From positions 337,616-401,615 of the forward strand of contig NZ_FZNO01000001.1 in assembly GCF_900188025.1 (NCBI RefSeq): 64,000 nucleotides of DNA, written 5' to 3'. Made by a program: the position numbers and the translations under genes. Below the pieces are notes generated by a model that was given only the letters and a program-made list of their open reading frames with translations, searched no databases and was not told where the DNA came from. Below, in pieces: positions 1 to 2,387 of the stretch (position 1 is the stretch's first letter; each line of letters begins with the position of its first letter). Origin of the DNA: Blastococcus mobilis. Lineage in GTDB: Bacteria > Actinomycetota > Actinomycetes > Mycobacteriales > Geodermatophilaceae.

Positions 1-269
1 GCGAGGTGGTCATCGAGGCGCTCGCCGATTAGGGCTCCTGCACGTCGTGCAGTGTGCACGACATCGCCGACCTGGAGCGCCGCGGCGTGGTGGCCCTCTT
101 CCTCGCCAGCGAGGCCTTCGCCGAGGCCGCGCGGCTGCAGGGCGAGGCGCTCGGCTTCCCCGCCCCGTTCGTACTCGTGCCCCACCCGGTCCAGGACCGG
201 ACCGACGACGAGCTCCGCACCATCGCGGAGCGTGTCTACCCCGACGTGGTCGCCGCGCTGACCGCGTGA
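1..269 (+). CDS. UGSC-family selenoprotein, C-terminal part, with in-frame TAG read as selenocysteine
   Basis: The frame starting at base 3 is open across the window edge and reads EVVIEALAD, then TAG at 30-32, then GSCTSCSVHD, and continues to a TGA at 267-269. UGSC-family proteins carry the motif D-U-G-S-C-T, where U is selenocysteine (cysteine in some members). The TAG falls exactly at U and the family sequence continues unchanged on both sides, including the C-terminal VPHPVQDRTDDE stretch. The CxxC-like residues after U suggest a redox role; the reaction is not known to me. The 5' end lies outside the window. The frame could also start at GTG 54, but that would cut the family motif in half. 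UAG as a Sec codon is established for Geodermatophilus and Blastococcus; its use here is inferred from the motif and the hairpin. An IclR-controlled monooxygenase lies downstream, convergent with this gene. Confidence 0.85.
30..52 (+). other. UAG selenocysteine codon with adjacent SECIS-like hairpin
   Basis: TAG at 30-32 is followed five bases later by a perfect inverted repeat, CTGCAC (38-43), GTC (44-46), GTGCAG (47-52). Bacterial SECIS elements are hairpins just 3' of the Sec codon, inside the coding region, and present a G-U in the apical loop to the elongation factor SelB. This hairpin has G44-U45 at its tip. The stem also encodes the conserved C-T-S-C, so coding constraint alone could explain part of the symmetry. 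SelB binding is inferred. Confidence 0.6.
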
Positions 270-399: not shown

Positions 400-2328
400 C
401 TACCGGGCGTCGGTCAGGACGCCGGACAGGAAGTCGGCCAGCTCCTCGTGCCCGTCCAGGGGGAGCACGTGGGCGACGTACTGGTCCGGTCGGACGACGA
501 CCATGCAGCCCGTCTCCCGGTCGATCCCGCGCAGGTCGAAGACGTCGTCGCCCGCCGGGTCGGGGCAGAAGACCTTCTCGTAGTCGATCAGCCCGAACGT
601 GCCCTTCCTCGGGAGCAGGACCGGCGGCATCGCCTCGACGGCCAGGTCCCGGTGGTTCTGCTGGAAGACGGCGCGGACGTCGATGAGCGAGTCCGGGTCG
701 GCCCCGGCCGGGGTGTGCCGGGTGATCGGAGACTTCTCCGACCCCAGGAAGTCGCACAGTGCGCGGGCTCCGGAGTCCAGGCTGGTCGGGTCGCTCCGGT
801 CGGCGAAGACGTAGATGCGCCAGGCGCCGTCGGCCCGGGCGGCGTGGCCCAGCTGCACGGGCTTGGCGTCGGCCAGCCGCACGACCGGGGCCGAGTGGAA
901 GCGCATCCCGACGGGGAAGCCCTCCGCGAGGTGCTGGAACTGGGTCCCAGCGGTGATGACCGACGGTGCGTACCTGGTGGCGACGCCGGCGGTGAAGCGA
1001 CCCTGGGCGGCGAAGTACCGCTGGAACTCGGCCGGGTCGACGCCCTCGCCCTCCTCCTCACCGGACTCCTTCGGCGGGGCGCTGAACATGCGGGCGAACT
1101 CGCGGTCGAAGTCGATGAGCTCCTGGGCGATCACCTGGCGCTCCGCGGAGTAGGTGTCCAGCAGTTCCGGCCGGGCGGTGCCCCGCAGGACGGCGCCCAG
1201 CTTCCAGCCGAGGTTCCAGGCGTCGGCCATCGACACGTTCATGCCCTGGCCGGCCTTGGCGCTGTGCGTGTGGCAGGCATCGCCGGCGATGAACACGCGG
1301 GGGACGCGCGAGCCGGTCTCCTCGGCCGGCACGTCGTCGAACTTGTCGCACAGTCGCTGGCCGATCTCGTACACCGACCACCACCCGACGTCCTTCACCT
1401 CGAGGGTGTACGGGTGCAGGACGCGGTTGGCCACCGCCGCGAGCTTCTCCGGCGTGACGCTCCTGTTGTCGAGCATCTCCCGGTCGCTGACCTGGTCCAG
1501 CTCGATGTAGAGCCGGACCAGGTAGCCGCCCTCCCGCGGGATGATGAGGAGGTTGCCCTGGTTCGCCGACAGGATCGCCGACTTGAGCCGGATGTCCGGG
1601 AAGTCGGTCACCGCCAGGACGTCCATGACGCCCCACGACTGGTTCATCGGGTCCCCGACGAGCTCACGGCCGATCGCCGACCGCACGCCGCTGCGCGACC
1701 CGTCGCATCCGACGACGTACTTGGCGCGGACCGTGGAGGTCCGGCCGGTCTCCTGGAAGTTCTCCAGGTGCTGCAGCGTGACGGTGACCGGGTGCTCCGC
1801 CGAGCTGTCCGAGTCGATGGTGAGCCCGCTGGCGTGGAGGCCGTAGAAGGGTTCCAGCCGGCTGGCGGAGCGCTCCATGTGGTCGCGCAGGTAGGCGAGC
1901 ATGCGCGCCTGGTTGACGATGACGTGGGGGAACTCCGACAGCCCGTCCTCGACGTCCTGGATCCGCCCGGTGCGGGTGATCCGGGTCCGGTCCTCCGGGT
2001 CCGGTCGCCAGAAGGAGACCTCGTTGACCCAGTAGCCCTCGGCGACGAGCTGGTCGGCCAGGCCGAACGCCTCGAACATCTCCACGGTGCGGCAGGCGAC
2101 CCCGTCGGCCTGGCCCACCTCGAGCGGACCGTCCCGGCGGTCGATGACCATCGTCCTGATGTCGGGGAAGTTGGCCAGCTGGGCGGCCAGGACGAGGCCC
2201 GCCGGACCGCACCCGACGATCAGGACGTCGACCTCGTCGGGCAGGCCGTCCGGCCGGTCCGCGACGGAGGGGTGCGGCTCCTCGATGAAGGGGTCGCCCG
2301 GCCGGTATCCGTTGAGGTAGAACTGCAC
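400..2328 (-). CDS. FAD-dependent aromatic-ring monooxygenase, MobA / phenol 2-monooxygenase type
   Basis: Predicted flavoprotein hydroxylase of about 642 residues that would use NAD(P)H and O2 to hydroxylate a phenolic or hydroxybenzoate-type ring. The Rossmann FAD site GCGPAG is near residues 39-44. The second flavin motif IAGDACHTHSAKAGQGMN lies in the middle, followed by DAWNLGWKL, and the last ~150 residues form the thioredoxin-like dimerisation domain typical of this group. The GTG at 2328 (protein start VQFYLNGYRPGDP) is preferred: it matches the usual family start and has AGGGA about eight bases upstream. A further in-frame start at 2355 is possible. The gene is divergent from an IclR regulator, the classic arrangement for an inducible aromatic-catabolic gene. 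The substrate cannot be read from the sequence; 3-hydroxybenzoate 4-monooxygenase is the closest type I recognise. Confidence 0.85.
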   Translation of the reverse strand: MQFYLNGYRPGDPFIEEPHPSVADRPDGLPDEVDVLIVGCGPAGLVLAAQLANFPDIRTMVIDRRDGPLEVGQADGVACRTVEMFEAFGLADQLVAEGYWVNEVSFWRPDPEDRTRITRTGRIQDVEDGLSEFPHVIVNQARMLAYLRDHMERSASRLEPFYGLHASGLTIDSDSSAEHPVTVTLQHLENFQETGRTSTVRAKYVVGCDGSRSGVRSAIGRELVGDPMNQSWGVMDVLAVTDFPDIRLKSAILSANQGNLLIIPREGGYLVRLYIELDQVSDREMLDNRSVTPEKLAAVANRVLHPYTLEVKDVGWWSVYEIGQRLCDKFDDVPAEETGSRVPRVFIAGDACHTHSAKAGQGMNVSMADAWNLGWKLGAVLRGTARPELLDTYSAERQVIAQELIDFDREFARMFSAPPKESGEEEGEGVDPAEFQRYFAAQGRFTAGVATRYAPSVITAGTQFQHLAEGFPVGMRFHSAPVVRLADAKPVQLGHAARADGAWRIYVFADRSDPTSLDSGARALCDFLGSEKSPITRHTPAGADPDSLIDVRAVFQQNHRDLAVEAMPPVLLPRKGTFGLIDYEKVFCPDPAGDDVFDLRGIDRETGCMVVVRPDQYVAHVLPLDGHEELADFLSGVLTDAR

Positions 2329-2387
2329 GCTCGTTTCCCTGCCATCCGCGGCCACAGTGTCTGTCGAGTCCTGACGGTGCCCGACTT

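Follow-up and report, generated by a model that had tools for sequence, protein, structure and literature searches.

The stretch of DNA analysed here (the window, 64,000 nucleotides from Blastococcus mobilis) opens inside a UGSC-family selenoprotein gene, the 3' part of which occupies positions 1–269 of the plus strand in frame 3, from within codon 82 to the TGA stop at 267–269. The ATG lies outside the window, 243 bases 5' of position 1 (G000:C54:337372), and the gene start shares a four-base overlap with the end of the preceding ORF on the contig. Frame 3, already open where the window starts, reads EVVIEALAD-TAG-GSCTSCSVHD, and the TAG at 30–32 is its sole interruption until the TGA. This TAG is the predicted selenocysteine codon and corresponds to residue 92, where the UGSC motif has its U. 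The 170-aa read-through product carries the U/C-G-S-C motif and exceeds the curated cut-offs of both UGSC models, with 149.5 bits against NF041046 (cut-off 125; residues 26–169) and 154.9 bits against PF24696 (cut-off 25; residues 3–169), each match beginning before the TAG. The gene departs from these families in its Sec codon, which is UAG and not UGA or a Cys codon.

A sequence-only reading of the window had claimed that family sequence continues on both sides of the TAG and that the TAG sits exactly at the selenocysteine of the motif. The profile matches bear out both claims, and the evolution of the gene agrees with them. Across 11 plus-strand UGSC loci, our own included, substitutions at codon positions 1, 2 and 3 numbered 292, 308 and 808 before the TAG (60 codons, 55 pairs) and 192, 242 and 836 after it, a third-position bias on both sides that indicates one continuous coding frame. 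Alignment of 52 UGSC proteins revealed invariant residues on either side of the TAG, those before it including L32, D34, K37, R46, K63 and P64; together with the two-sided bias, they argue for a single protein. Alternatively, translation could start downstream of the TAG, perhaps at an in-frame GTG (54–56), which would leave the TAG outside the gene. However, all three measures (model matches, invariant residues and coding-type substitutions) show the part preceding the TAG to be conserved, coding sequence of the family, and we regard a start downstream as barely conceivable.

The TAG is followed by a SECIS-like hairpin at 44–62 (plus strand), in which seven base pairs (44–50 with 56–62) enclose the loop AGTGT (51–55). 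Its first paired base stands 12 nt after the TAG, leaving an 11-nt spacer. Among the 281 TAG triplets on both strands of the window, only TAG 30–32 combines, at the spacing tested, at least 6 of 7 pairs with a loop of the form RGTNT, and 7 pairs with this loop are reached at 3 of 127,920 window positions, so the hairpin exceeds what chance would provide. The phenol 2-monooxygenase-like neighbour gene (400–2355, minus strand) offers an internal control, since its TAG stop (400–402) has 3 of 7 pairs; the CocE-like gene directly upstream of the UGSC gene (L008:7840) also ends in TAG, with 2 of 7 positions paired where the hairpin would lie. UAG without the hairpin probably still terminates translation, as in this neighbour and the upstream hydrolase gene.

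The decoding genes expected from such a reading are present in the host genome. Of seven candidates for the tRNA-Sec model RF01852, two exceed the cut-off of 47: a tRNA-Sec at C65:81524, with 67.0 bits and the anticodon CTA (CUA), and a tRNA-Ser (tga). No tRNA-Sec(UCA) occurs among the seven matches in this assembly, which is 99.99% complete. The tRNA gene lies in the order selD-like < tRNA > selA > selB, and the adjoining selA (422.6 bits, cut-off 267.9) and selB (winged helix domain present) are both above their curated cut-offs. The gene upstream of the tRNA, on the minus strand, has AIR-synthase domains, in a Cys form by eye, and is a putative selD. The genome checks suggested by the sequence-only reading, for tRNA-Sec(CUA) and for selA and selB, were thus positive. 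Its placement of the host in Geodermatophilaceae also stood, in that the SelA of this genome falls among Blastococcus in a quick tree of this one gene. A different UAG-reading tRNA, for pyrrolysine or an amber suppressor, could in principle insert another residue, and ARAGORN does label the tRNA as tRNA-Pyl, owing to its CTA anticodon. However, the tRNA scores 67 bits against the tRNA-Sec covariance model, adjoins selA and selB, and folds with a long variable arm, unlike the arm of tRNA-Pyl, which has three nucleotides according to an excerpt of PMC7609411. In addition, the position of the residue is TGA in one relative's locus (L183) and Cys in eight of the loci read. Insertion of another residue therefore appears very improbable, and selenocysteine remains the preferred reading.

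We conclude that TAG 30–32 is almost certainly read as selenocysteine via tRNA-Sec(CUA). The tRNA would be charged by SerRS, SelA and SelD, and SelB would bind the hairpin 3' of the UAG; with CUA the only tRNA-Sec found, SelB would deliver selenocysteine at UAG in place of termination by release factor 1. The earlier proposal of a natural codon recoding is supported by the TAG at the Sec codon, tRNA-Sec(CUA), selA, selB and the hairpin, selenocysteine insertion itself being a prediction. With the standard bacterial UGA-Sec system the host shares selA, selB, a tRNA-Sec and a hairpin 3' of the codon; the difference is that codon and anticodon have changed together, from UGA/UCA to UAG/CUA.

The genome holds two further UAG genes. 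UGSC2 (C48) reads VAVGD-TAG-GSCSSW, and its frame begins with a thioredoxin-reductase-like domain containing a CAGC motif (L127:6937–8382), a stretch that obtains 166.5 bits against TRX_reduct, under the equivalog cut-off of 343. FdhA (C61) reads NQARI-TAG-HSATVPG. The window gene (UGSC1), UGSC2 and FdhA each form all 7 pairs at an identical spacing, with the five-base loops AGTGT, AGTTT and GGTCT, respectively. In an alignment of seven hairpins, which combines unrelated proteins, 95.9% of cells pair, compared with at most 55.1% when slid. A hairpin model, built partly from the very hairpins that it finds, places UGSC1, UGSC2 and FdhA at 45.4–48.5 bits. It found no other place above 25.4 bits in the genome among the 150 of 12,977 first-look candidates scored, at the one spacing that the model fixes (other spacings could escape it). 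Nine further matches, of 20 listed, were rejected: four lack an initial TAG, and the frames around the five that start with TAG appear by eye to be antisense or out of frame. The twelve listed matches read thus appear to include no additional UAG-Sec gene in this genome.

We extended the analysis to 112 genomes of the GTDB family Geodermatophilaceae. A tRNA-Sec was found in 108 of the 112, including all 96 good assemblies, and the exact CUA arm in 101. The UGSC search matched 95 times across 54 genomes; 72 of the matches hold one TAG and 23 no stop (Cys in the seven of these that were read, L099–L105), and none holds TGA or TAA. FdhA gave 131 rows in 101 genomes, 118 of them with one TAG; the remaining 13 are seven fragments missing Sec residue 187 and six paralogues at 32–34% identity. 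No TGA occurs in any FdhA or UGSC match spanning the Sec residue in the 112 genomes, the sole FdhA row with TGA (G079) covering residues 200–329 only. In that genome, the alignments of both FdhA copies (G079:C4 and G079:C12) stop at 177–179 and restart at 198–200, so that the Sec stretch seems absent, as if broken. These searches count stops and not their place; the place was read in 24 distinct UAG sites, and in all 24 the TAG is at the Sec codon. The same UGSC search, run on 397 genomes sampled across the order, gave 34 matches outside the family (26 genomes), 15 with TGA, 19 with no stop and none with TAG, and the 15 TGA matches indicate that the search is able to detect TGA.

The census bears directly on whether the TAG is an ordinary stop, the gene being broken, truncated or affected by a sequencing error. 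Public gene calls often split the gene, and many relatives in the databases have a length of about 93 aa and cover 53% of the UGSC query. Among eight database relatives opened at the residue-92 site, five have Cys, one W, one R and one E, the last (P0038) being a chain that ends one residue later and corresponds to the piece up to the TAG site. Yet a single TAG recurs in 72 UGSC matches and 118 FdhA rows, at the Sec codon wherever it was read, substitutions are biased to third positions before and after it, a hairpin lies 3' of it, and the genome encodes tRNA-Sec(CUA). An ordinary stop is accordingly highly unlikely. Since gene callers split UAG-Sec proteins in this way, such proteins are easily overlooked in databases.

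The hairpin was conserved along with the UAG codon: all 7 pairs form at 23 of the 24 distinct UAG sites, and 5 form at the remaining one (L106). Stem and loop are the same in L183, the one UGA-coded UGSC that was read from a different family of this order, and on this comparison the codon switch seems to have altered the codon and kept the hairpin. A hairpin can also be folded in the same stretch of Cys forms of UGSC by plain MFE, and the distinction between Sec and Cys hairpins is one of spacing and loop.

The 11 family genomes without the CUA arm comprise all nine genomes of genera g5–g7 and two incomplete g9 MAGs (G097 and G098), whose FdhA rows carry TAG. A tRNA-Sec was recovered in seven of the nine g5–g7 genomes, with the anticodon TCA in all. 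These UCA-keeping genera, which consist of MAGs, belong to the same GTDB family (L131–L136 and L139, from G066, G068–G070 and G072–G074). Opening 30 tRNA-Sec loci of the family gave 22 CTA and 8 TCA, the eighth TCA being a second tRNA of genome G058. Comparison of these genomes suggests that the UAG switch is fixed in nine of the twelve genera and that UCA is kept in three, a boundary that is apparently new. Named loci conform to this pattern: among the best 80 of 470, all 33 from the Geodermatophilaceae clade (Blastococcus, Geodermatophilus, Modestobacter, Klenkia, Trujillonella, Goekera, two further members and "Bacillus sp. AZ43") have CTA, and the other 47 comprise 29 with TCA and 18 without a tRNA in the stretch. 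The locus titled Bacillus sp. AZ43 (L018, UNVERIFIED_ORG) encodes a SelA 90% identical to that of our genome and a CUA tRNA-Sec, and the record is probably mislabelled.

A quick SelA tree built from 84 rows separates the 35 CTA rows from all others across a single branch, for which the SH-aLRT is 100. Two g6–g7 SelA rows are not adjacent to the CUA clade, and SelA thus leaves the placement of those genera unsettled. Outside the family, the CUA arm was found in 1 of 322 genomes, an 82% complete MAG (G230). We do not count this MAG as a CUA genome of another family: the SelA fragment encoded on the 4.8-kb contig concerned (L224, G230:C194) shares 82% identity with the SelA of Blastococcus and with that of our genome, and the contig is probably a stray.

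One family genome, G058, which matches Geodermatophilus marinus, has two tRNA-Sec genes, with CUA on C11 (L161) and UCA on C17 (L160; 81.8 bits). The UCA gene belongs to an island (C17:1000–5900) of 61.7% GC, compared with 72.3% at C17 8,600–20,000; tetranucleotide likeness to C11 is r 0.71 for the island and 0.906 for the latter stretch, and ORFs that look transposase-like by eye flank the island. An AhpD-like ORF adjoins the UCA tRNA and reads C-F-Y-TGA-M-E-S-H, with the TGA at the CxxC cysteine. It scores 112.6 bits against TIGR01926 (cut-off 81.8) and has a sub-cut-off match to the AhpD CFYUT (seleno)protein family. The corresponding site is Cys in the 14 family AhpD paralogues read, and the TGA form is absent from the other family genomes (1 of 77 rows in the 112 genomes, that of G058). 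The sequence 3' of this TGA can be folded by eye as ACGCAG-AGTTT-CTGCGT, with the loop two bases closer than it is in UGSC. A single selB exceeds the cut-off in G058, whose UGSC and FdhA genes both have TAG. A second candidate UGA gene of the island (WQY-TGA-MAVNRAS) was rejected: six proteins opened among the 120 listed all start at that Met, and this TGA is more probably located 5' of the coding region. We give about even chances to a two-codon selenocysteine system in G058, in which UAG would serve the native FdhA and UGSC and UGA the acquired AhpD-like gene, with two tRNA-Sec and one SelB; the second tRNA and its UGA gene may instead reflect a chimeric contig or a dead island. Our searches of one open-access paper collection brought up no account of a Geodermatophilaceae genome that uses two Sec codons.

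The AlphaFold2 model of the UGSC protein (52 sequences, pLDDT 94.1) has five strands and five helices, with residue 92 between strand 84–90 and helix 93–108, and fold comparison identifies it as flavodoxin/Rossmann-like. A sequence search for solved structures gave no credible match. Forty-seven of the 52 aligned UGSC proteins match the GrdB model gly_red_sel_B (TIGR01917) at E ≤1, the best at 2.5e-5. Our protein aligns to model positions 334–397 through the Sec region with 11.1 bits (E 0.14), far under the curated cut-off of 602 bits; it is a single 170-aa domain and not a member of GrdB, the likeness being distant and in the Sec region. The protein is therefore predicted to have a flavodoxin-like fold with Sec at a helix start, and to be distant kin of the Sec part of GrdB. 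A partner family adjoins both UGSC genes, at L008:7958–9373 and, in two copies beside UGSC2, at L127:8379–9422 and L127:9419–10468. The partner beside UGSC1 bears at its N terminus a thioredoxin-like CPTC segment, which Pfam matches at E 0.0009 without reaching the gathering score. No Pfam or NCBIfam model matched the partner family as such, which is large: of the 7997 scored, 6353 count as relatives at E ≤ 0.001. The TrxR-like fusion of one UGSC and the Trx-like segment of one partner point to thioredoxin coupling, and from these neighbours we infer that UGSC may be a thioredoxin-coupled reductase with GrdB-like Sec chemistry.

Mukai and colleagues reportedly obtained 75Se and mass-spectrometry results on UAG-programmed selenocysteine in 2016, in what is said to be a report on two genera. 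The window's UGSC gene has no essential difference from the Geodermatophilaceae UAG-Sec system, with which it shares the CUA tRNA-Sec, UAG at the Sec codon of formate dehydrogenase and UGSC, and the family itself. As the sequence-only reading stated, this recoding has been published for the host's family: passages of PMC5330540, which cites the original report, place UAG-coded UGSC and formate dehydrogenase of Geodermatophilaceae in the literature of 2016–2017 and describe an AhpC with UAG in Blastococcus saxobsidens. A UAG-Sec gene of this kind is therefore already known, and our additions are, apparently, the 112-genome census, the border with the genera that keep UCA, the fusion of TrxR with UGSC and a single genome holding both tRNA types.

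The UGSC gene of the window is a clear natural case of altered codon meaning, and the census extends a two-genus report to a family-wide pattern of one SelA clade, conserved hairpin geometry, and UAG wherever an FdhA or UGSC match spanning the Sec residue holds a stop. A simple script assigned TGA to 31 and TAG to 3 of the 34 stops of window genes, suggesting that moving selenocysteine to the rarer stop could lessen conflict with termination. G058 would allow a direct test of whether one SelB can serve two Sec codons per cell. If its two-codon system is real, SelB and the hairpin would be indifferent to which stop is recoded and the anticodon alone would set the Sec code, which would explain how a whole family could shift from UGA to UAG.
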